Positions 2,538 to 42,814 of a stretch of DNA of 46,592 nt are shown here, one piece after another. Source of the DNA: an uncultured Clostridia bacterium (GTDB lineage Bacteria > Bacillota > Clostridia > Christensenellales > Borkfalkiaceae); contig CALZDP010000009.1 of assembly GCA_945638575.1 (NCBI GenBank), forward strand, positions 1 through 46,592, read 5' to 3'. Position 1 is the first letter of the stretch, and each line of letters begins with the position of its first letter. A program made the position numbers and the translations under genes. The notes under the pieces are model-generated. The model was not told where the DNA came from and did not search any database. It saw only the letters and a program-made list of their open reading frames with translations.

Positions 2538-3737
2538 ATGAGCGTTATAGATACTTTAAAAGCACGCGGTTTTTTAAAACAGACCGTCAACGGTGAAGAA
2601 CTTGAAAAACTTCTTGACAGTAAAAAAGTAACATTCTACGTCGGTTTCGACCCTACGGCGGACTCTCTTCATATCGGGCATTATATTCCCATAATGGCAA
2701 TGGCGCATATGCAAAAGGCAGGGCATAGACCTATCTGTCTTTTCGGCGGCGGCACCGCTATGGTCGGAGACCCTACGGGAAGAACGGATATGCGTTCCAT
2801 GCTTTCTAAAGAGCAAATCGCTTCCAACATCGAACATTTTAAGGCGCAAATGTCCCGCTTTTTGGACTTTGATGGGGAAAACTCAGCCATCATGGTTAAC
2901 AATGCCGATTGGCTTTTAAACCTTAATTACGTAGATTTTTTGCGCGATATCGGCGTATGCTTTTCGGTAAACCGTATGCTTACCGCGGAATGTTTTAAAC
3001 AGCGCTTGGAACGTGGCTTAAGTTTTTTGGAATTCAATTACATGCTTATGCAGGGCTACGATTTTTACAGGCTTTACGAAGATTACGGTTGCGTTTTGCA
3101 ACTCGGCGGAGACGACCAGTGGTCTAATATGCTTGCCGGCGAAGATTTGATAAGAAGAAAAACCGGCAAGGAAGCCTATGCCATGACTTGTACGCTGCTG
3201 CTTACAAGCGAAGGTAAAAAGATGGGCAAAACCGCAAAAGGCGCTCTTTGGCTTGACGAAAATAAAACAACCCCTTACGAATTCTATCAATATTTCAGAA
3301 ACGTCGAGGACGCTAAAGTGGAAGAATGTATGAAACTTCTTACCTTTATGGATCTTGACGAAATCGCCGAACTTACCAAATATAAGGACGAAAGAATCAA
3401 CGTTGCCAAAGAAAGGCTTGCCTACGAGGTAACCAAACTTGTTCACGGCGTTGAAAAGGCCGACGAAGCCAGAAAACAAGCACAGGGCGCTTTCGGCGGA
3501 AACCAAGCCGATATGCCTACCGTCGAAGTCGAAAAGACCGACTTTATCCCCGACATAATGGTGTCTGCCGGTATTACCAAATCTAAAGGCGAGGCAAGGA
3601 CTTTGATTTCCGGGGGCGGTGTTTCCGTAAACGACCAAAAAGTTACGGGTTTAACCTTAGACAAGGCGGTTTTAGATAAAGGCGAATTTATCCTTCATAA
3701 GGGCAAAAAGGTTCACGTAAAAGTTATCTTAAAATAA
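2538..3737 (+). CDS. tyrS: Tyrosyl-tRNA synthetase
   Basis: Charges tRNA-Tyr with tyrosine in the cytosol. The class I signature HIGH is at residues 45-48 within [13 protein letters not shown], and the KMSKS-equivalent loop reads KMGKT at 228-232, the usual TyrS variant (K-x-GKT). The tyrosine-site region ([14 protein letters not shown], then QLGGDDQW) is intact. The last 65 residues or so form an S4-type RNA-binding domain ([19 protein letters not shown]). At 399 aa it has the normal TyrS length. It starts at ATG 2538 after a weak GAGG. A dispersed repeat begins right at its stop codon. Confidence 0.97.
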
Positions 3738-3760
3738 AAGTCGGTCTATAGGTCGATTAT
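3736..3760 (+). repeat. Dispersed repeat D, copy 1 (type A)
   Basis: Begins in the tyrS stop codon. It reads AAAAGTCGGTCTATAGG then TCGATTAT, one mismatch from the type A consensus, and is followed by the extended tail TCGATGTTTTTT. Confidence 0.85.
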
Positions 3761-3837
3761 TCGATGTTTTTTATCTGCTTAACAGAATATAAATCATCGG
3801 CGAAAGACTAAAAAATCACAATAAACACGGGTAAAAC

Positions 3838-4449
3838 ATGGAAAGTTTCCTTTCGGTTGAAAATAATACCGCCATAGAAACGGTAATAGAACGTTCGCGT
3901 TTTATTACCCATGTTTTTTATGCGGAAACGGAAAGCGTTGCAAGGGGGTATCTTGACGGAATACGCAAAAAGTATTCCGACGCTACCCATAATTGCTACG
4001 CATACGTAACCGATTTCGGCAGGGTAACCAAGTCTTCAGACGACGGCGAACCTTCCGGTACCGCAGGCGTTCCCATTTTAGAAGTCTTAAAAAATAAAAA
4101 ACTTGTTAACCTTTTGGTTGTGGTAACAAGGTATTTCGGCGGTATAAAATTGGGTGCGGGGGGCTTGGTGCGCGCATATTCCGGATCTGCGGCAGACGGC
4201 GTTATGTCGGCGAAAATCAAAGAGTTTTTTATTTGCGACATTTTCACCGCCGAAGTAAAATATGACGAACTAAACCTTTTTAAAAAGGAAATTTTACCCC
4301 TTTGCTTTTTAGTTTTAAACACCGAGTACGGCGAGAGTATAAAACTTACCTTTGCCGTTAAAAAGTCGGGCTATAAGCCGTTTATCGACGGTTTTAATAA
4401 AGTTTTTTACAATAAAACTTTTCAAAAAACAGGGGAAAGTTATTACTAA
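3838..4449 (+). CDS. yigZ: YigZ/IMPACT family protein
   Basis: A 203-aa cytosolic protein of the UPF0029/IMPACT family. The N-terminal domain carries the hallmark run from RSRFITHVFYAET through DATHNCYAYV and DDGEPSGTAGVPIL to VVVTRYFGGIKLGAGGLVRAYS. The C-terminal ferredoxin-fold half (about residues 137-203) is more diverged, as usual. The biochemical role in bacteria is not settled; eukaryotic IMPACT modulates translation control. It is joined directly to recX (stop TAA then ATG with no gap), so the two are translationally linked. Confidence 0.92.
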   Translation: MESFLSVENNTAIETVIERSRFITHVFYAETESVARGYLDGIRKKYSDATHNCYAYVTDFGRVTKSSDDGEPSGTAGVPILEVLKNKKLVNLLVVVTRYFGGIKLGAGGLVRAYSGSAADGVMSAKIKEFFICDIFTAEVKYDELNLFKKEILPLCFLVLNTEYGESIKLTFAVKKSGYKPFIDGFNKVFYNKTFQKTGESYY

Positions 4450-5092: not shown

Positions 5093-5794
5093 ATGAAGAT
5101 AATTTATTTAAACAAAACCAAGTCGACCGAAGATTATATAAAGCGCCGTCTTAAAAAACAGCAAAAACTTCGCGAGGATCTTTTTGTCATAGCCAAAACC
5201 CAAACGGGGGGCAAAGGCACCAAGGGCAGAAGTTTTTCTTCCTTAGAAGGCGGTCTTTATCTTTCCTTTTTGCACTTTCATAACGGTTTGCCTTGTAAGG
5301 AAGGTTTCAATATAAATAAAGCGATTTCGGTAGCGGTGGTAAAAACCCTTGTCGGCTTCGGCATAAATGCGGGCATAAAATGGCCGAACGATATTTATGT
5401 TTCCGGTAAAAAAATTTGCGGTATGCTTATAACAAACTCTTTTGTCGGCGACTATATCGACTATACCGTAACCGGCATAGGCATAAACGTAAACAACGAT
5501 TTACCCGAAGAATTATCTGAAATCGCAACTTCCGTAAAACAGATTTTAGGACGGGAAGCCGACTTAAAAAGCCTGACAGCAACCCTTATATATAACCTTT
5601 TAAATCCGGAAAAAGTCGACCTATACGCCCGTTATTCCGTGGTTTTGGGTAAAACCGTCAAAGTAATGCCCATAGGTAAAGAACCTTATTTTGCCGTTGC
5701 AAAAGAGATTTTGCCCGACGGCAGGCTTCTACTTTGTAACGGCGCAGTTTTAACCGCCGAAGAAGTTTCTTTGCGGTTAAGCGACATTAAGTAG
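5093..5794 (+). CDS. birA: Biotin--[acetyl-CoA-carboxylase] ligase (monofunctional BirA)
   Basis: Attaches biotin to carboxylase carrier domains through biotinyl-AMP. The catalytic core is clear: AKTQTGGKGTKGRSFSS stands for the GRGRxGRxW loop, IKWPNDIYVSGKKICGMLI carries the catalytic KWPND lysine, and TGIGINVNND follows. At 233 aa it consists of catalytic domain plus small C-terminal SH3-like domain and lacks the N-terminal winged helix, so it should not act as a bio-operon repressor. In the GRGRxGRxW loop the final Trp is replaced by Phe (GRSF). Start ATG 5093 has no good ribosome site and probably relies on coupling to recX. Confidence 0.93.
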   Translation: MKIIYLNKTKSTEDYIKRRLKKQQKLREDLFVIAKTQTGGKGTKGRSFSSLEGGLYLSFLHFHNGLPCKEGFNINKAISVAVVKTLVGFGINAGIKWPNDIYVSGKKICGMLITNSFVGDYIDYTVTGIGINVNNDLPEELSEIATSVKQILGREADLKSLTATLIYNLLNPEKVDLYARYSVVLGKTVKVMPIGKEPYFAVAKEILPDGRLLLCNGAVLTAEEVSLRLSDIK

Positions 5795-8267: not shown

Positions 8268-8279
8268 GTAAAACCTTGA

Positions 8280-8304
8280 ATAATCGACCTATAGACCAAC
8301 TTAT
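8280..8304 (-). repeat. Dispersed repeat D, copy 2 (type A)
   Basis: Minus orientation: ATAATCGACCTATAGAC then CAACTTAT. It differs from type A at a few left-arm bases. It lies between the EF-G terminator and the kinase gene. Confidence 0.75.
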
Positions 8305-9301: not shown

Positions 9302-10210
9302 TTAAAAGGGATAACTTTCAAGCGATATGTCTGTTATTTTTCTGTTTTCCAAAGCGAACTTAACGTATTTTACCTTTCCGCTTCCGATGACTGAAAAAGT
9401 GTCTTTAAACTCTTTGTAAAAAGGGGGTAAGCAAAAATCTATTTTTCCGAAAAATTCTTTGACGGCGGTGTAATCGTTTACAAGGTTATCACCTAAAAAG
9501 TGCCGATAATCGACCCCGAGGCGCACTTCTTCTAAAAAAGCAAGGGGGATGATCTCTTTGGGCATCACCCCGTAAGGGTATCGGGATTGAAAGGATATAT
9601 TCCTTAAATTTACCTTTCCGTCGTAGTTATATTGTCTTGTTTCGGCGTGCCTTCCTATGCCGTTATGTATTTTTGTAACCGAAAGTATTTCGCCTATGGT
9701 AAACTCGTCGCAAAGGTCGGTAAATTCAACTTTCAAACTGGGTACCGAAAATATCACCACAAAGTGCATTTTTCCTTTTAAATCGGCTAAAAAAAGGCTT
9801 CCGCCTACCGGATAAACTTCTATATCGGTGGGCGCAAAAGGCACTTCAAGCCTGACTTCCTCATTAAAACCGCGGCAATTTAAAAAAATAGCCCCGTCTG
9901 AGTAAACGGTAATAAAATACTCGATGTTATCTATAACCACGGTTTTTTCCGCAATCTTGTTATAACGTAAATTTCTTTTGGGTTTTGGTACGGGATAGCA
10001 CAAAATGTCGCCGTATAGGTCGGTTATCTCTACATATTGGCAAAATTCACGCTTATGGGAATACATACAGGTTTCAAAATCTTTTCCCATAAAAAAGGTT
10101 AAAGTTTCCTCTTTATCAACTGTTAATCTAAGTAGGTTTCGGGAAACCGTAACACTTTTATTACCGCTGCAAAGCAGACAATTTTTTAAAGAGTACACAA
10201 ACATATTCAT
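9302..10210 (-). CDS. Hypothetical protein, β-rich
   Basis: I do not recognise this 302-aa protein. It has no signal peptide or membrane segment, is rich in alternating hydrophobic/polar β-like stretches (for example IDNIEYFITVYSDGAIFLNC and VYPVGGSLFLADLKGKMHFV) and holds several cysteines near the N-terminus (NCLLCSGN). The β-strand periodicity suggests a propeller or sandwich fold, but this is only an impression. Start: ATG at 10210 or 10204. The promoter TTGACG-16-TATTAA at 10214-10241 would start transcription near 10207, so the message may be nearly leaderless, with ATG 10204 as the true start. It is convergent with the kinase gene. Confidence 0.65.
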   Translation of the reverse strand: MNMFVYSLKNCLLCSGNKSVTVSRNLLRLTVDKEETLTFFMGKDFETCMYSHKREFCQYVEITDLYGDILCYPVPKPKRNLRYNKIAEKTVVIDNIEYFITVYSDGAIFLNCRGFNEEVRLEVPFAPTDIEVYPVGGSLFLADLKGKMHFVVIFSVPSLKVEFTDLCDEFTIGEILSVTKIHNGIGRHAETRQYNYDGKVNLRNISFQSRYPYGVMPKEIIPLAFLEEVRLGVDYRHFLGDNLVNDYTAVKEFFGKIDFCLPPFYKEFKDTFSVIGSGKVKYVKFALENRKITDISLESYPF

Positions 10211-11794: not shown

Positions 11795-11873
11795 AATCGA
11801 ACTTTGGCTTTCCGATTGGAAGATCGAAGAAAGACAGCGTGAACTCGGTTGGGTGTACGAAAAGGATAAATAA
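11610..11873 (+). CDS. divIC: Septum formation initiator DivIC/FtsB
   Basis: An 87-aa bitopic membrane protein: a short basic N-terminus, one membrane helix (about residues 9-33, IVSSVVTAVLLLFILLSIMV), then a coiled coil (NVQKRIDGLNEQIAALEAEKAE) and a C-terminal WKIEERQRELGWVYEKD segment with the family's 'E--ARE-L-(M/W)V' ending. It works in the divisome with FtsL and DivIB. It has a perfect AAGGAG four bases before ATG 11610, inside yabQ, so independent translation initiation is likely. Its stop overlaps the ppx start (TAATG). Confidence 0.88.
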   Translation: MPAEKLKKLIVSSVVTAVLLLFILLSIMVYQMIALKNVQKRIDGLNEQIAALEAEKAETQDEIELWLSDWKIEERQRELGWVYEKDK

Positions 11874-12739
11874 TGAAATATTCCGTAATAGATATCGGTT
11901 CCAATTCCGTCCGTTTAGCAGTTTTTGCGGACGGAAGTATTATTTTTAGGGATAAAGTTACCTCGATGCTCGGCGAAGGTTTGGTAAAATACGGCAAAAT
12001 TTTGCCTCATTCCGCAGTAAATACACAAGAAGCGATAAAATCATTTATACAGTATTCGATAAATCTAAGCGTTAATAAGGAAAATATTTTCGCTTTTGCT
12101 ACCGCGGCGGTACGCCAAAGCAGTAACGGTCGGGATTTTGTTCAAAAAATATTTGACGATACGGGCATTTGCGTCGACGTTTTGTCCGAGGACGCCGAAT
12201 GTAAACTTGCCGCTCTTGGCGCGCTCGGGCGTAGTGACGGCGCGGTTTTAGACGTAGGCGGTGCTTCAAGCGAACTTATAGTGCAGTCAAAGGGTGAAAT
12301 CACCTATGAAAAAAGTCTTGACGAAGGCGCGGTAAAACTTACCGAAAGATTTTGCGAAGACCAAGCCGAACTTTTTAAATACGTCGATAAAAAGGTTCGC
12401 GAATACGGCGAAGTCAAAATACCATTTCTTACGGCTATAGGCGGTACGGCAACCGCTTTAGGACATGTTTTAAGCGGTGATAAAGAGTATTCCGTGGAAA
12501 AAAATCACGGCAGATTTGTGCCGATAACCGACCTATACGCTAACTTATCTAAAATTAAGGGTTATTCCTTAGAGCAAAGAAGTCGGATTTTTAACTTAGA
12601 AAAATCCCGCGCAAAGACAATTTATAGCGGCGGAATTTTAATATATTACGTACTAAAGTATTTCGGCCTTAAAGGTTACACCGTCAGTGAAAGCGACAAC
12701 TTGCAAGGTTACTACCTTTATAAAACGGGAGAAAAATGA
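11873..12739 (+). CDS. Ppx/GppA-family phosphatase
   Basis: A 288-aa ASKHA-fold enzyme. YSVIDIGSNSVRLAVF is the phosphate-1 loop, FATAAVRQSSNGRDF and DAECKLAALGAL are the central blocks, VLDVGGASSELIV is phosphate-2, and AIGGTATALG closes the core. The reaction is hydrolysis of exopolyphosphate or of pppGpp to ppGpp. It is the short form, lacking the C-terminal HD-like domain of E. coli Ppx/GppA (about 500 aa). Start and stop overlap with divIC (TAATG) and the M50 gene (ATGA), so the whole yabP-to-M50 run is one tightly coupled operon. Confidence 0.9.
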   Translation: MKYSVIDIGSNSVRLAVFADGSIIFRDKVTSMLGEGLVKYGKILPHSAVNTQEAIKSFIQYSINLSVNKENIFAFATAAVRQSSNGRDFVQKIFDDTGICVDVLSEDAECKLAALGALGRSDGAVLDVGGASSELIVQSKGEITYEKSLDEGAVKLTERFCEDQAELFKYVDKKVREYGEVKIPFLTAIGGTATALGHVLSGDKEYSVEKNHGRFVPITDLYANLSKIKGYSLEQRSRIFNLEKSRAKTIYSGGILIYYVLKYFGLKGYTVSESDNLQGYYLYKTGEK

Positions 12740-13806
12740 AACAAAAGTTTAAATTTTTTATCGGCATATTTTTGTCGATAGCGGTATCGGTACTTGCCGT
12801 TATTGCGGCAATTTACGCTTGCAAAAACAGTGATAACAGATATTATATGATAGCAATTTATGTCGTTATCGGGCTTATAGGCGGATATTTTATCCATAAC
12901 GCATTGCACGAAACAGGGCATGCCTTAGGCGCTAAATCTTACGGAGCGATCGTTTTCGGTATCTCGGTAAGCGGTCTTGTTTTTGAAAAAGGCAAAAAAC
13001 CGCGCATAGATTTAAAAAGCGGTGTTGCCGGTTGGACGGCTTTCGTACCTAAATCGCCGAAAAGTTCATTACGGGTTTTAGGTAATTCCCTTATCGGCGG
13101 ATTTTTCGGAAGTTTCATTTCCTTGGTTTTAGGCGTTGCCTTTTATGTAACCGGACTTTTGACGGGTAATTATCCCTTAATTGCGGTTTTTGGAATTTAT
13201 ACCGCCGTAAACGTATATATGATTTCTTTAAATTTCTTTTCGGATAAATCGGGTACGGACGGCGCGATGTTTTCCAAAAACAAAAGCGACCTTTCTAAAG
13301 AGTTCGGCGATAGACTTTTACTTTTGGAATATCAATCCCATATGTTAAACGGAAAGTCCGCAAAAGATATCGATTATCTTATCAACAAACGTTTGATTAA
13401 AGAAAACTTTTATACCGTTTTCGACGTGCAAAAGTGTTTGCAAACGGGCGATATAATCGGCGCCGAAGCCTTTATCCATTCTGCGCTTTACGGTCGAGAA
13501 AAGGAATATAACGGGCGTATAGACCTACTTTTGGAAGATTTGTTTGTAAATATTTTAAAGGACAACCAAAAAAGAGTGCAGGCTTTGGCTGAAAGGTTAG
13601 AAGGCTATCTTTTAGAACCTAACTCTCCGCAAGCCATGCGTACCGCTATTTTTTACAGAAGATACACCAAAGACGACCTTTGGGCGGACAGCCTCGAAAA
13701 AACCTATTTTAAGACTTTAAACGAGCATCCTTTAACGGGTTTAGCCCAAACTGAGCGTGAAATTTACCTGAGATTTGCCCCTGCCGAAAAGGATTTTCGC
13801 TTATAA
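12736..13806 (+). CDS. M50-like membrane metalloprotease
   Basis: A 356-aa membrane protein with a zinc motif HETGH (His58-Glu59-His62) inside a hydrophobic helix (YFIHNALHETGHALGA), the mark of M50/site-2 proteases. Helices are at about 6-27, 36-55, 115-140 and 148-170. A later FSDKSGTDGAMF segment may provide the third zinc ligand (normally NxxPxxxLDG). The roughly 180 C-terminal residues are soluble and helical, without a PDZ domain. Candidate substrates would be membrane-bound regulators; the coupling to sporulation and division genes (4-bp ATGA overlap with ppx) hints at a role in that process, but the substrate is unknown. Confidence 0.75.
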   Translation: MKQKFKFFIGIFLSIAVSVLAVIAAIYACKNSDNRYYMIAIYVVIGLIGGYFIHNALHETGHALGAKSYGAIVFGISVSGLVFEKGKKPRIDLKSGVAGWTAFVPKSPKSSLRVLGNSLIGGFFGSFISLVLGVAFYVTGLLTGNYPLIAVFGIYTAVNVYMISLNFFSDKSGTDGAMFSKNKSDLSKEFGDRLLLLEYQSHMLNGKSAKDIDYLINKRLIKENFYTVFDVQKCLQTGDIIGAEAFIHSALYGREKEYNGRIDLLLEDLFVNILKDNQKRVQALAERLEGYLLEPNSPQAMRTAIFYRRYTKDDLWADSLEKTYFKTLNEHPLTGLAQTEREIYLRFAPAEKDFRL

Positions 13807-19152: not shown

Positions 19153-19216
19153 AAACAGTTTATACGGCAAATAAGCGGTTTCTGTTTTTGGCGGTATTGC
19201 CGTTTAAAACTGTAAA
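19153..19216. repeat. Imperfect inverted repeat upstream of the M13 peptidase
   Basis: The left arm AAACAGTTTATACGGCAA (19154-19171) is matched by the right arm TTGCCGTTTAAAACTG (19198-19213), with a loop of about 26 nt. It abuts copy 3 of the dispersed repeat. It could be an RNA stem or the terminal repeats of a small relic element. Confidence 0.45.
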
Positions 19217-19238
19217 AGTCCGCCTATAAGCCCGTTAA
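19214..19238 (+). repeat. Dispersed repeat D, copy 3 (type B)
   Basis: AAAAGTCCGCCTATAAG then CCCGTTAA, followed by CGGCTTTTTTAT. The tail together with AGCCCGTTAACGGCT could fold into a weak terminator-like hairpin. Confidence 0.85.
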
Positions 19239-19293
19239 CGGCTTTTTTATACAATTATCACATAAAATAAATTAAATTATAAGGAGAATATTT

Positions 19294-21211: not shown

Positions 21212-21236
21212 AAAAGTCTGCCTATAAGCCCGTTAA
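21212..21236 (+). repeat. Dispersed repeat D, copy 4 (type B)
   Basis: AAAAGTCTGCCTATAAG then CCCGTTAA, 10 bp after the pepO stop; one mismatch from type B. Confidence 0.85.
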
Positions 21237-21359
21237 CGCGGCAAAGCCGATTCAATTAAGAATTAAGAATTGCGGTCGGTTGAAAGTATTTATATTATAA
21301 ACGCTGACGCAATCTCAAACTTATACAGAATACTACCGGGTATCGAACTATCAACGGAC

Positions 21360-26461: not shown

Positions 26462-27232
26462 ATGCCAAGACCGACAAAATACCGTAGAGTGTGCAATTAC
26501 CCTACAGTTTACGGCTTTTCGCCCATAGGCGGTGCGTTAGGCAAGCCTGTTACTTTAACGGTAGACGAATTTGAAACGATACGCCTTATCGATAAAGAGG
26601 GTTTAAGTCAGGAAAACTGCGCAGTCCAACTCGGCGTGGCAAGAACTACCGCTCAAAAAATATATGAAACCGCCAGAAACAAGATAGCAAACGCCTTAGT
26701 TAACGGTTGTGCGCTAAAAATCGAAGGCGGACAGTACCGTTTGTGCCGCGGAAGTTCGGACTTGTGTTATAACAACAACTGTATAAAACGCAAAATTCAA
26801 TCAGAGTGTAAACAAAAAGGAGAAAATATTATGAGAATAGCAGTAACTTACGAAAACGGAAAGGTTTTTCAGCATTTCGGAAGGACCGAGCAGTTTAAAC
26901 TTTACGATGTACAAGACGGCAAAATCGTCGCAACTAAGGTTATCGGAACTAACGGTTCCGGACACGGCGCACTTGCCGGCGTACTTTCTGCCGCAAACGT
27001 AGACGTGCTTATTTGCGGAGGTATCGGCGGCGGCGCTCAAATGGCTTTGAGCGAAAGCGGAATAAAACTTTACGGCGGTGCAAGCGGTAACGCAGACCAA
27101 GCGGTAGCGGACTTTTTAAGCGGAAACTTAAACTTCGATGAAAACGTACATTGCGACCACCACGACCATGAACACGGCGAAAATCATACTTGCGGCGACC
27201 ACGGTTGCGGAGAAGGACATTGTCATCACTAA
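26462..27232 (+). CDS. DUF134 HTH domain fused to a NifX/NifB-type dinitrogenase-cofactor domain
   Basis: A 256-aa two-domain protein. Residues 1-100 are DUF134, with an HTH (RRVCNYPTVYGFSPIG, then EFETIRLIDKEGLSQENCA and VARTTAQKIYETARNKI). Residues 124-230 form the dinitrogenase iron-molybdenum cofactor fold (MRIAVTYENGKVFQHFGR … FKLYD … GHGALAGVL … DVLICGGIGGGAQ … GNADQAVADFL). A His/Cys-rich tail (HCDHHDHEHGENHTCG) probably binds metal. No nitrogenase is in the window; such proteins occur widely in non-fixing anaerobes. An internal AAGGAG (26817-26822) precedes Met124 (ATG 26831) by 8 nt, so the second domain may also be made alone. Confidence 0.85.
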   Translation: MPRPTKYRRVCNYPTVYGFSPIGGALGKPVTLTVDEFETIRLIDKEGLSQENCAVQLGVARTTAQKIYETARNKIANALVNGCALKIEGGQYRLCRGSSDLCYNNNCIKRKIQSECKQKGENIMRIAVTYENGKVFQHFGRTEQFKLYDVQDGKIVATKVIGTNGSGHGALAGVLSAANVDVLICGGIGGGAQMALSESGIKLYGGASGNADQAVADFLSGNLNFDENVHCDHHDHEHGENHTCGDHGCGEGHCHH

Positions 27233-27274: not shown

Positions 27275-27299
27275 AAAAGTCTGCCTATAAGCCCGTTAT
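27275..27299 (+). repeat. Dispersed repeat D, copy 6 (type B)
   Basis: AAAAGTCTGCCTATAAG then CCCGTTAT, with the extended tail TCGTTGTTTTTA. From here to the tRNA terminator (27300-27650) I see no gene or structure. Confidence 0.85.
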
Positions 27300-27650
27300 T
27301 CGTTGTTTTTAGTCGTTTTTTACAAACTTAACGTAAGGCTTAAATTTGCATAAATAGGACTTTTGTTTTAAAAAAAATCGCATAGTTTGGAAGGCGTTGA
27401 AGTAAAAAAATTTAAGCGCCTTGACAATCGGATAAAACGGAAGTATAATAACTTACACGGCGTCAGCGGTCTTATAACCGATAAGTTTAAAATATAAGGC
27501 AGCCTATTAAGTTTATTGATAAAGATAGGTTGGACGTATTAAAACTTAAAAAATATAGGCAGAATAAGGATACGGTTAAGTTCAATTTGTTTTTTGCATC
27601 GGTATGGCAGAATTATAGTTTTTTATGGCGTATAATAGCAAATTGAATAC

Positions 27651-28009: not shown

Positions 28010-28750
28010 ATGGTAAACGAGAACTTTGCAAGCAGTATAAAAAATAATACCGAAAGCATAGGTTTTTTAAACCTTTATTTTGCCAAAGTTCAATCTTTTA
28101 ACGATAATTTGTACCCGATAGACAGACAAAAAGAGATAGATTCGGTAAATAATCCCAATTTAAAAGCGCAAAAGCAGACTTCGTGGAAGTTATTAGAGTT
28201 CGCCGTAAAAGACATTTTTAATAAAAAAACGGAAGATTTTACTTTTAAATGCGAAAACGGAAAGTGGCAGACGGACGGATTCTATTTTTCAATTTCTCAC
28301 ACAAAAAAACTTGTTTGTTTAGCCCTATCCGACGCCCCCGTCGGGGTTGATATCGAGAATATAACGGATTTTGCAAGCAGGGTTGAAAATAGGAAGGGTT
28401 TTTTTGAAAAAATAGCCGCTAAAAAAGAACTGGAAATAATTAAAAGTCCGTCTATAGGTCGGTTATTGCAACTTTGGACGGGTAAAGAAAGTAATTTTAA
28501 ACGTAACAATCAAAAGGTGTTTTTACCCCGAAGTACCGAAGTCGACGTTAACGAAACCTTTTATGCTTTTTTAGCGGAAGATGGCGAAGGTTTCAAAGTT
28601 TCCGCTTTGTACGGTTTTGGCGCTTTGGATAATTGTTTACAATGTAGCGCCGAAGGCTATTTGACGGCGATATGTTCAAAGTTTAAAGATTGCAAAATTT
28701 ACGGCTTAGACCTTGTAAACAATAAAAAAGTCCGTCTATGTAAACAATAA
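28010..28750 (+). CDS. 4'-phosphopantetheinyl transferase (Sfp/Gsp type)
   Basis: A 246-aa enzyme that would load the CoA-derived phosphopantetheine arm on carrier proteins. Motifs: FYFSISHTKKLVCLAL and the metal site GVDIE (112-116), then WTGKESNFK with Trp156, Lys159, Glu160, the W-KE-x3-K signature. Codons 145-152 are copy 7 of the dispersed repeat in frame (KSPSIGRL), right before the conserved Trp. At the 3' end a perfect 25-bp tandem duplication (28715-28739 and 28740-28764) has replaced an earlier TAG inside repeat copy 8 and adds CKQ. No ribosome site of note precedes ATG 28010. No NRPS/PKS or ACP genes are nearby. Confidence 0.88.
   Translation: MVNENFASSIKNNTESIGFLNLYFAKVQSFNDNLYPIDRQKEIDSVNNPNLKAQKQTSWKLLEFAVKDIFNKKTEDFTFKCENGKWQTDGFYFSISHTKKLVCLALSDAPVGVDIENITDFASRVENRKGFFEKIAAKKELEIIKSPSIGRLLQLWTGKESNFKRNNQKVFLPRSTEVDVNETFYAFLAEDGEGFKVSALYGFGALDNCLQCSAEGYLTAICSKFKDCKIYGLDLVNNKKVRLCKQ
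28442..28466 (+). repeat. Dispersed repeat D, copy 7 (type A), inside the phosphopantetheinyl transferase gene
   Basis: AAAAGTCCGTCTATAGG then TCGGTTAT, differing from copy 8 at one of 25 bases. It starts on a codon boundary and encodes KSPSIGRL. Confidence 0.9.
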
Positions 28751-28764
28751 AAAAGTCCGTCTAT
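28715..28764 (+). repeat. Perfect 25-bp tandem duplication at the end of the phosphopantetheinyl transferase gene
   Basis: Two identical units start with GTAAACAATAAAAAAG and end with TCCGTCTAT. Each unit ends within the left part of repeat D. Confidence 0.95.
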
Positions 28765-28775
28765 AGGTCGATTAT
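28751..28775 (+). repeat. Dispersed repeat D, copy 8 (type A)
   Basis: AAAAGTCCGTCTATAGG then TCGATTAT, directly after the TAA stop, with the tail CGATATTTTTTA. A truncated copy (about 28727-28739) precedes it through the tandem duplication. Confidence 0.9.
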
Positions 28776-28812
28776 CGATATTTTTTAAGCAGTTAAAATA
28801 ACGTTACTTATT

Positions 28813-28856
28813 GTTTAACGCCGTGTTTAAAATAAACACGGCGTTAAACTTTTTTT
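28813..28856 (+). terminator. Strong terminator after the phosphopantetheinyl transferase gene
   Basis: A perfect 17-bp stem, GTTTAACGCCGTGTTTA (28813-28829) with TAAACACGGCGTTAAAC (28833-28849), 3-nt loop, then T7. The rest of the 28751-29149 gap contains only repeat copies 8 and 9. Confidence 0.95.
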
Positions 28857-29017
28857 GATTTATAAAAAATGCGAACGGATAAATTTTGTAATAGCGACAG
28901 TTATCGTAATAGTAAAATTATTGCGATTTAGAAAGACTAAGGGCAGTTAATTTTAGGTGTGAAGCATTGCTAAATTAAAAAAATAATATTGGTTACGTTT
29001 TTTCAAAAAATGCCGAA

Positions 29018-29038
29018 AACAGGCTTATAGACCAAGAT
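29018..29038 (-). repeat. Dispersed repeat D, copy 9 (degenerate)
   Basis: Minus orientation: AACAGGCTTATAGAC then CAAG; a mixed, decayed copy. Confidence 0.6.
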
Positions 29039-29149
29039 ATTAAAATTTTACGCCGTAAAAATAAAGCAACAACGCATAAACCCAAAAGCCTGTATTCCGT
29101 TTAACAAAAAGCGGTAATTACCTTTTTATTTAATATCAAATTTCAAAAG

Positions 29150-33080: not shown

Positions 33081-33098
33081 AATATTTTAAACTTAGCG

Positions 33099-33123
33099 AT
33101 AACAGGCTTATAGGCGGACTTTT
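33099..33123 (-). repeat. Dispersed repeat D, copy 10 (type B)
   Basis: Minus orientation: ATAACAGGCTTATAGGC then GGACTTTT; one mismatch from type B. It lies between the binding protein and permease genes. Confidence 0.88.
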
Positions 33124-33232
33124 ACTGTAAATTTGCCGTTGTATAGGCGTTAGCCGTCTATCCCAAGTTTCTTGTCGGTGCTTTTTAAACAAAAAAGCGC
33201 GCGCCTCGTCGGGTTTAAGTAAAATATGTGCG

Positions 33233-33257
33233 ATAACGGGCTTATAGGCGGATTTTT
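33233..33257 (-). repeat. Dispersed repeat D, copy 11 (type B)
   Basis: Minus orientation: ATAACGGGCTTATAGGC then GGATTTTT. It is 134 bp from copy 10 in the same orientation and the same intergenic gap. Confidence 0.88.
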
Positions 33258-36157: not shown

Positions 36158-36186
36158 TTGACAAAAAATTATAATTGGTTTATTAT
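36158..36186 (+). promoter_or_regulatory. hypB1 promoter giving a leaderless start
   Basis: Consensus TTGACA (36158-36163), 17-bp spacer, TATTAT (36181-36186). The expected start point, about 7 bp on, is the A of ATG 36193, and no ribosome site precedes that ATG. Confidence 0.6.
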
Positions 36187-36192
36187 CTAACT

Positions 36193-36864
36193 ATGGACGA
36201 ATTTAAAATTGTTGAAATAAAGGAAGACATTCTTTCAAGAAATAACGAACAGGCTAAAGATATCCGCCGTGAAATGCGGGAAAAAAAGATATTCTTTTTA
36301 AACGTTATGTCCTCGCCGGGGAGCGGTAAAACCACCCTTATCACCGAAATCATCAACGGCTTGAAAAATGATTATAAGATAGGTATTATCGAAGCCGACT
36401 TAGATTCCGCGGTCGACGCCGAAACCATTGCAAAGACGGGTGTAAAAGTTGTGCAAATTCATACTTTGGGCGCCTGCCATATTACCTGTCAAATGTCTTA
36501 CGAAAGCCTTTCAGCGCTCGGTACGGACGGTCTTGACGTGGTCATTTTGGAAAATATCGGCAACCTTGTTTGCCCTGCGGAATTCGATACCGGCGCAAAT
36601 AAAAATTTGGTTTTGTTGTCCGTTCCCGAAGGCGACGATAAACCGCTTAAATATCCGCTTATGTTTGAAGTCGCGTCCGTTGTCGCCATTACCAAAACCG
36701 ACGTCGGAAAAATTTTCGACTTTTCGCCCGAGCGTGCGGTTGAAAACATACATAAACGCAACCCCGACGTTCCCGTGTTTATAACTTCCGCAAAATTAAA
36801 GCAGGGCGTAGACGAAGTCGTAAATTACCTTCGTTGCGAAATAGAAAAGGTTAAACGCGGTTAA
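36193..36864 (+). CDS. hypB: HypB-like nickel-insertion GTPase (paralogue 1)
   Basis: A 223-aa SIMIBI GTPase of the HypB/UreG group. P-loop SSPGSGKTT (41-48), HTLGACHITCQMS with the dimer-interface Cys/His pair, and ENIGNLVCPAEFDTG, the HypB metal-site block, then SVPEGDDKPLKYP. The guanine motif TKTD (cf. NKxD) is near the end. It lacks the N-terminal CxxCGC or His-rich nickel-storage segment. HypB hands Ni2+ from HypA to nickel-enzyme precursors at the expense of GTP. ATG 36193 is the start; an in-frame TTG at 36175 would overlap the -10. It is terminated before the next operon. Confidence 0.88.
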   Translation: MDEFKIVEIKEDILSRNNEQAKDIRREMREKKIFFLNVMSSPGSGKTTLITEIINGLKNDYKIGIIEADLDSAVDAETIAKTGVKVVQIHTLGACHITCQMSYESLSALGTDGLDVVILENIGNLVCPAEFDTGANKNLVLLSVPEGDDKPLKYPLMFEVASVVAITKTDVGKIFDFSPERAVENIHKRNPDVPVFITSAKLKQGVDEVVNYLRCEIEKVKRG

Positions 36865-37012: not shown

Positions 37013-37020
37013 AAACGTCG

Positions 37021-37045
37021 ATAATCGACCTATAGGCGGACTTTT
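37021..37045 (-). repeat. Dispersed repeat D, copy 13 (A/B hybrid)
   Basis: Minus orientation: ATAATCGACCTATAGGC then GGACTTTT. Its left arm (in repeat orientation) is type B and its right arm type A, with a perfect GACCTATAGG(C/T) core. Nothing else is seen in 36937-37253. Confidence 0.88.
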
Positions 37046-38718: not shown

Positions 38719-38757
38719 GCCTTTGCCGAAGCGCTTTTCGGGTGTTTCGGCAAAGGC
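38719..38757 (+). other. Perfect 12-bp hairpin between the isomerase-like gene and hypB2
   Basis: GCCTTTGCCGAA (38719-38730) with TTCGGCAAAGGC (38746-38757), 15-nt loop. No T tract follows at once, so a partial terminator or an mRNA-stabilising/processing site that sets differential expression is likelier than full termination. Confidence 0.6.
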
Positions 38758-38798
38758 GTCGATTAAATAATTTTTATCTTCTATTCTTTAAGGCGATC

Positions 38799-39464
38799 AT
38801 GGGAAAAGTTAGAACAATACTGTTACAAAAAGGGGTTTTTGACGACAACGATTTGCAAGCCCGAAAGTTAAGAGATTATCTTAAAAGCAAGGGTACGTTT
38901 TTAATAAACGTTATGTCCTCGCCGGGGGCAGGCAAAACGACCACCCTTGTTTCGCTTATCAACAGGCTTAAAGGTTTTATGAATATCGCCGTAATGGAAG
39001 CGGATATCGATTACGATATCGACGCCGTTCGCGTTGCGGACAAAACGGGCTGTCCGTCTATTCAACTTCACACCGGCGGTATGTGCCATTTGGACGCCGA
39101 AATGACGAAACAGGGAATAGACGGTTTGGGAAGTTTCCCCGACCTTATATTTCTCGAAAACGTAGGCAATCTCGTTTGCCCTGCGGAATTCGATACCGGC
39201 GCGCATCTGGACGCAGTTATACTTTCGGTGCCGGAAGGGGACGACAAGCCTTTAAAATACCCGTTGGTTTTCCAAAAGGCAAGCATTGTCATAATAAACA
39301 AGATTGACGCCTTAGACTATTTTACATTCGACGCGGAAAAGTGTAAGCGCAATATTTTGGAAAACAATCCCAACGCTCGAATATTTACCGTTTCCGCAAA
39401 AACGGGCGAGGGAATGGAAGAACTTACAAATTACATTAAAAAAACAATAAAGGAGTGGCACTGA
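38799..39464 (+). CDS. hypB: HypB-like nickel-insertion GTPase (paralogue 2)
   Basis: A 221-aa paralogue of the gene at 36193. P-loop SSPGAGKTT (41-48), HTGGMCHLDAEM with the Cys-His metal pair, ENVGNLVCPAEFDTGAH, SVPEGDDKPLKYP, and NKID as the guanine motif. This copy keeps the canonical NKxD that paralogue 1 has as TKTD. Start ATG 38799 follows an AAGG; an upstream in-frame ATG (38742) lies in the hairpin. It ends in TGATG, overlapping the next start. It has no His-rich N-terminus. Its function would be Ni2+ delivery in concert with the hypA gene downstream. Confidence 0.9.
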   Translation: MGKVRTILLQKGVFDDNDLQARKLRDYLKSKGTFLINVMSSPGAGKTTTLVSLINRLKGFMNIAVMEADIDYDIDAVRVADKTGCPSIQLHTGGMCHLDAEMTKQGIDGLGSFPDLIFLENVGNLVCPAEFDTGAHLDAVILSVPEGDDKPLKYPLVFQKASIVIINKIDALDYFTFDAEKCKRNILENNPNARIFTVSAKTGEGMEELTNYIKKTIKEWH

Positions 39465-42716: not shown

Positions 42717-42789
42717 ATGGCTTTAAAAATATTAAAAACAGGCGAAACATTGATGTTTTTTTACGTTACAGACAACAAAAAAACATCGA

Positions 42790-42814
42790 TTAACGGGCTT
42801 ATAGCCCCACTTTT
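42790..42814 (-). repeat. Dispersed repeat D, copy 14 (type B)
   Basis: Minus orientation: TTAACGGGCTTATAGCC then CCACTTTT, in the gap between two convergent genes, with the extended tail (AAAAAAACATCGA on the plus strand). Confidence 0.82.

Follow-up and report, generated by a model that had tools for sequence, protein, structure and literature searches.

Rickettsia palindromic elements (RPEs) are repeats that are translated within proteins, where they are insertions that add residues. BIME/REP repeats and curved DNA with phased A-tracts form another kind of dispersed element, which is helically phased and enriched near gene 3' ends.

The DNA uptake sequences known as USSs have a core and A/T tracts, occur in hundreds of copies of which many are coding, originate by point mutation, and form dialects (PMC1626085, PMC7811141). 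An orthologue-gap test like the one used below showed that USSs are not insertions (PMC1626085). Further systems act at the level of the whole chromosome. The Noc sites of Bacillus subtilis are largely absent from the terminus (PMC4331003), and the SlmA-binding sites (SBSs) of E. coli are more abundant origin-proximally (PMC4117426).

The window considered here is a stretch of 46,592 nucleotides from an uncultured Clostridia bacterium. It holds 19 profile-detected copies of a short element, one of which is translated within a 4'-phosphopantetheinyl transferase (PPTase) (Table 1). The element looks like a chromosome-organising signal that has been undescribed so far. When the literature was searched for its core, none of the ten matches listed, of 19, was a paper on a bacterial genome.

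Table 1. Element copies and associated features in the window.
Feature	Position	Strand	Basis
Sfp-type 4'-phosphopantetheinyl transferase gene, 246 aa	28010..28750	+	PF01648, Sfp 1QR0, model
Element copy in PPTase, AAAAGTCCGTCTATAGGTCGGTTATTG, residues 145-152 KSPSIGRL	28442..28468	+	sequence + profile
Extended element at PPTase copy, outer A/T tracts -10..-5 and +31..+35	28432..28477	+	family profile
Element copy 3' of PPTase ("copy 8" of the sequence-only reading)	28751..28777	+	sequence + profile
25-bp tandem duplication, left half of next element copy	28714..28764	+	repeat comparison
Intrinsic terminator-like hairpin 3' of PPTase gene, separate from element	28813..28849	+	hairpin
Element copy, overlaps gene 3' end	3736..3762	+	profile
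Element copy, phase 1 within gene 3838-4449; kept in place in G002	4361..4387	+	profile, alignment
Element copy, in gene 5093-5794, stop-less variant; kept in place in G002	5611..5637	+	profile, alignment
Element copy, intergenic	8278..8304	-	profile
Element copy, antisense in gene 9302-10210; conserved in G002	10003..10029	+	profile, alignment
Element copy, antisense in gene 11873-12739; conserved in G002	12522..12548	-	profile, alignment
Element copy, in gene 12736-13806; G002 without copy there	12864..12890	-	profile, alignment
Element copy, antisense in gene 12736-13806; conserved in G002	13506..13532	-	profile, alignment
Element copy, intergenic	19214..19240	+	profile
Element copy, 10 bp past gene 3' end	21212..21238	+	profile
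Element copy, intergenic, weak score	22992..23018	-	profile
Element copy, 42 bp past gene 3' end	27275..27301	+	profile
Element copy, weak score, between PPTase and TetR genes	29014..29040	-	profile
Element copy, intergenic	33097..33123	-	profile
Element copy, intergenic	33231..33257	-	profile
Element copy, intergenic	37019..37045	-	profile
Element copy, between convergent genes	42788..42814	-	profile

The copy in the phosphopantetheinyl transferase

The product of the host gene matches PF01648 with 35.3 bits (cut-off 25) and Sfp (1QR0) with E=4e-4. It keeps the family invariants H97, G112, D114, W156, K159, E160, and K164, which represent the H, G-D, W-x-x-K-E, and K positions. By these features, which are those of the ACPS family, the predicted protein is evidently a genuine Sfp-type PPTase.

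A sequence-only reading of the window had paired AAAAGTCCGTCTATAGGTCGGTTAT (28442-28466) with 28751-28775, where 24 of 25 bases are equal and one is mismatched, and had called coincidence unlikely. This is borne out. The 21-bp core, allowing at most 3 mismatches, has 5 matches in the window against 0.00 expected from dinucleotide shuffles, and the pattern AGTCNGYCTATARGYCSRTTA has 86 matches in the genome (45+41) against 0 for the reversed control. The profile score of the PPTase copy is 37.9, compared with less than 16 in the Markov control. The pairing itself is real, but the copy at 28751 is one of 19 in the window.

The same reading correctly placed the start at the first base of a codon (432 bases, or 144 codons, from the start of the frame at 28010) and the peptide KSPSIGRL, encoded by 24 bases, just before WTGKE, with three residues between them. 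The structure model (pLDDT 82) agrees with a position in the loop beside the catalytic helix. Residues 144-148 form a loop, helix 149-165 bears W156, K159, and E160, and the copy covers the loop together with the first helix turn.

The alignment with Sfp (1QR0) is gap-free across the copy segment and gives no net gain in length. Likewise, the loop is not longer than in orthologues of the family. None of the orthologues found carries the element, including those of four congeners (G002, G003, G004, and G006). Because the alignment is gapless and no orthologue has the repeat, the copy probably arose in place and recently, and is probably younger than the other in-gene copies. As far as these alignments reach, it is lineage-specific and sits in a variable loop. 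The repeat had been proposed to enter the enzyme or to be born within it; entry is contradicted by the gapless Sfp alignment, and birth in place is favoured.

A perfect 25-bp tandem duplication joins the gene to the next copy, and its right edge falls on CTAT, in the middle of the element. The duplication takes the place of the TAG stop in that next copy, so that the PPTase gains CKQ at its C-terminus. Without the duplication, the frame would end at the TAG within that copy (KKVRL, then stop).

Two observations concern other genes of the window. The frames at 36175-36864 and 38742-39464 are diverged paralogues, 2.6 kb apart, that share 52 nt at 87%; both have a NVMSSPGSGKTT-like nucleotide-binding start and are possibly HypB-like duplicates. 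The gene at 26462-27232 fuses DUF134 to a Nitro_FeMo-Co (NifB/NifX-type) domain, and relatives are found on large gut-bacterial plasmids at <60% identity.

Architecture and range of the element

The consensus of the element is AAAAGTCnGYCTATARGYCSRTTATCG, and the element spans roughly 36-45 bp. Five A/T tracts lie at about -7, 2, 13, 23, and 33, at a spacing of ~10 bp; in the extended profile the tract period is 10.0-10.25 in G000 (the window's genome), G002, and G004. The same profile reveals no homology in the flanks beyond the motif. Each outer tract is either an A run or a T run, with linked positions, which suggests that DNA shape, and not only sequence, is under selection.

Copies were found with an iterated profile in draft metagenome-assembled genomes (MAGs), with home-made gene calls. 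At a score of at least 18, there are 219 matches in 743 kb of G000, a coverage of ~45% of its 1.67 Mb (0.30 copies/kb), and 511 matches in 1.42 Mb of G002 (0.36 copies/kb). The Markov control gave no match at a score of 16 or more. There are about 500 copies per chromosome of one sequence-specific, helically phased DNA element. Close pairs (<500 bp) account for 9-10% of copies, compared with 21% expected. The short motif is strongly over-represented in the genome, as uptake sequences are. No viral contig had a match to the element.

The strands are balanced in G000 (109+/110-), and the element is therefore a DNA signal rather than an RNA signal. An RNA hairpin was rejected, as covariation is local to each half, folding energy is modestly below that of shuffles, and there is no strand bias. 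The balanced strands also speak against an FtsK/KOPS-like polarity signal. An intrinsic terminator was likewise rejected, since copies have no orientation bias and the terminator of the PPTase gene is a separate hairpin. A search for a palindromic site gave only a quasi-dyad, with no covariation between stem partners. In G004, several dialect copies are near-palindromic (loci L242, L249, and L251), for instance AAAAATTGCGCGATAAGTCGATTATCGCGCAATTTT on its contig C24, and these copies could double as terminators.

The core is abundant in three genera of the family (g1, g2, and g14) and at background level in the 15 others. Dialects occur in G004 and G006; G004 has no exact match to the core, yet it carries its dialect at 0.28 copies/kb. 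Those bearers that public records name are uncultured Clostridia, the majority of them from the guts of ruminants and other herbivores. A lone pattern match lies at 2880-2900 of CALUPD010000039.1, in a MAG labelled Bacteroidales, and represents contamination or chance.

Copies within genes and across the chromosome

The sequence-only reading had spoken of an intergenic repeat. This description does not fit, as 99 of 222 copies in G000 lie wholly within predicted genes, a slightly low count because the simple gene caller missed the PPTase. Another 22 overlap the 3' end of a gene, and the remaining 101 fall between genes. Since the intergenic share of the sequence is 16%, copies are ~3-fold enriched outside genes, and many are found 0-30 bp from gene 3' ends.

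The genome-wide check for other in-frame copies that the reading had proposed does find them. Among the 41 sense in-gene copies, 30 are read in the KSxYKPxI frame (phase 1) and 7 in the KSPxIxxL frame of the PPTase (phase 0), and 45 of the 58 antisense copies are read in the DNGLIGxL frame. Because stop-free frames dominate and phase 0 is rarer than phase 1 (7 versus 30), being in frame is not special for the PPTase copy. What stands out is how the family as a whole is distributed: it is kept in place, has dialects, and is missing from the terminus.

Evidence for the origin of in-gene copies can be provided by their orthologues. In comparisons of G000 with 793 kb of G002, 49 of 53 alignments had no gap at the copy or close to it. 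When almost all of G002 was included, an in-gene copy was found at the aligned place in 58 of 84 cases, in proteins ~70% identical. The alignments thus identify these copies as in-place sequence, born by substitution, and not as insertions. Where residues within copies are identical, the codon is shared in 423 of 520 cases (81%), compared with 49% expected from the same amino acids elsewhere; the pooled count avoids selecting on conservation. Because codons at identical residues are kept to this extent, the copies are, on this comparison, constrained at the DNA level.

Copies are almost missing from one domain of the chromosome, 150-200 kb in size. In G000, the first 150 kb of contig C2 has 3 copies where 54.6 are expected (P about 5e-20). 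In G002, C10 together with C1:0-100 kb and C5:0-60 kb has 3 copies where 81 are expected (P about 6e-31); C10 and C1:0-100 kb are collinear with the G000 domain by synteny, and the adjacency of C5:0-60 kb is deduced. The domain limits were picked after the data had been seen; this makes the P values look stronger than they are, but the size of the effect, roughly 20-fold, is not inflated by it. Inside both domains gene strands converge and GC skew goes from + to -. Because of this convergence we infer that the motif-poor domain is the replication terminus, which is placed by strand and skew in draft MAGs rather than mapped. The genes parB and dnaA, by contrast, are surrounded by DNA rich in the motif, and gene strands diverge close to parB.

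A third species can serve as an independent check. In G006, tig, a marker of the terminus, is carried by a contig of 161,884 bp (C18) with 0 of the 41 exact matches of that genome, which has a probability of about 0.02 under uniformity. The comEC block is motif-free in G000 and G002 and carries copies in G006; because of this one block, the absence appears to follow position and not gene content. The terminus domain includes the conserved housekeeping genes tig, clpP, clpX, ftsY, and dnaK, and part of the depletion could therefore reflect constraint. Matched classes argue otherwise, as the depletion persists across the orthologue-identity classes compared.

Of the 8-mers in the genome, those most depleted at the terminus are nearly all fragments of the motif. 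A matS-like counter-motif of the terminus was rejected, as a comparison of k-mers turned up nothing convincing, only words that are A/T-rich or resemble codons. Smaller motif-free stretches exist outside the terminus, at G000 C1:0-30 kb and 70-110 kb, and these are densely coding on a single strand.

Possible roles and comparison with known systems

The best model for the element, to which we give a probability of about one half, is that its copies are binding sites of a putative chromosome-organising or nucleoid-occlusion-like factor. At each copy, a DNA-binding factor that acts chromosome-wide would bind and bend the DNA. The factor would mark, compact, or segregate the whole nucleoid except the terminus, as Noc- and SlmA-type sites do. 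Selection for enough sites per region would then create copies and keep them wherever the protein sequence permits. Sites of such a factor are consistent with the balance of strands, the constraint on DNA, the signature of shape, and the exclusion from the terminus. From conserved sites, we infer sites that are bound by a nucleoid factor. A bolder form of the model is slightly less probable: the element may be a new class of chromosome-marking element, whose ~500 helically phased, dialect-forming sites are maintained by selection both within genes and between them, avoid the terminus domain, and are recognized by a novel DNA-binding factor. No Noc, MinC, or type IV pili were found in this lineage.

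Membership in the Noc or SlmA families is not claimed from these sequences. A search for a second ParB-family gene (Noc) found one PF02195 gene each in G000, G002, G004, and G006, and Noc proper is ruled out, as only one ParB is present. None of the tested members of the family yielded MinC. This absence is uninformative because it is common to motif-bearing and motif-free genera.

Alternatively, the element may be a DNA uptake sequence, used for self-recognition in natural transformation and spread by biased uptake and recombination. This is unlikely, although the parallels are many. The anatomy of a core with flanking A/T tracts is the same, there are hundreds of copies with many in genes, copies are born by substitution rather than insertion, relatives have dialects, close pairs are few, and viral contigs lack the element; the mode of evolution is accounted for equally well. 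Almost every family genome tested has ComEC, but motif-free genera have it to the same extent. The platform protein of type IV pili, type II secretion, and Tad systems (PF00482) was found in 0 of 17 family genomes tested, and for the T2SSE ATPase (PF00437) genus g1 has marginal P-loop matches only. Terminus exclusion is left unexplained, and we know of no report of it for uptake sequences. In most genomes of g1, ComEC is a short open frame of about 500 aa.

Somewhat less likely still is a curved-DNA element of a topoisomerase or nucleoid protein, such as BIME-like gyrase sites or HU/IHF-type bends, that would control supercoiling near gene ends. Helically phased tracts, ~3-fold enrichment outside genes, and the many copies 0-30 bp from gene 3' ends would suit this role, but the core is sequence-specific far beyond the needs of bending, and 45% of copies are in genes and conserved there. 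Two HU paralogues occur in G000, G002, and G006, where the strong form is most abundant, and one in the others of the genus, yet G004 and G005 combine many copies with a single HU gene. HU dosage as a cause was rejected, as it does not track the dialect genomes. The second HU-family gene gives a weak hint of a binding partner. It is very improbable that the element is a small mobile repeat of the MITE/RPE kind, with insertions both between genes and inside them, which was the earlier reading. It would explain one coherent family and the local tandem half-duplication at the end of the PPTase gene, but mobile insertion is contradicted by the gapless orthologue alignments (49/53). There are hardly any gaps at in-gene copies and none in the Sfp alignment, the flanks lack homology, and places are common to species whose proteins are ~70% identical; neither terminus exclusion nor dialect drift fits. 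For the PPTase segment alone, chance resemblance can appeal to the orthologues that lack it. With 0.00 matches expected even at 3 mismatches and a score far above the control, its probability is close to nil. The sequence-only reading had named shared residues in distant orthologues as the mark of chance similarity; the orthologues found do not have these residues, and chance is not indicated.

If the copies are indeed chromosome-organising sites, an uncultured clade of gut Clostridia would be writing a terminus-avoiding positional code into its genome and thereby shaping protein loops. The dialects, the motif-free sister genera, and the conservation of positions would then offer a natural test of how such sites are gained and lost. 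The element also explains the recurrent odd peptides KSPxIxxL, KSxYKPxI, and DNGLIGxL in the proteomes of its bearers.

Among the known systems, RPEs are similar in being translated within proteins, but the element adds no length. It differs from BIME/REP sequences in that it is not palindromic, is often in genes, and is sequence-constrained. The USSs of Pasteurellaceae and the DUSs of Neisseriaceae share with it a core with A/T tracts, hundreds of copies, many of them coding, point-mutation origin, and dialects. They differ in sequence, in the terminus exclusion of the element, and in that no DNA-uptake pilus genes were found in its genus, so that the contrast is one of a shared mode of evolution without the uptake pilus. 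Compared with Noc and SlmA sites, the element has ~500 copies rather than tens (about 70 Noc sites), is longer, and has a phased A/T architecture with only a quasi-dyad, and no Noc-type second ParB was found alongside it. Like them, it consists of dispersed sequence-specific sites that cover most of the chromosome and are scarce at the terminus.
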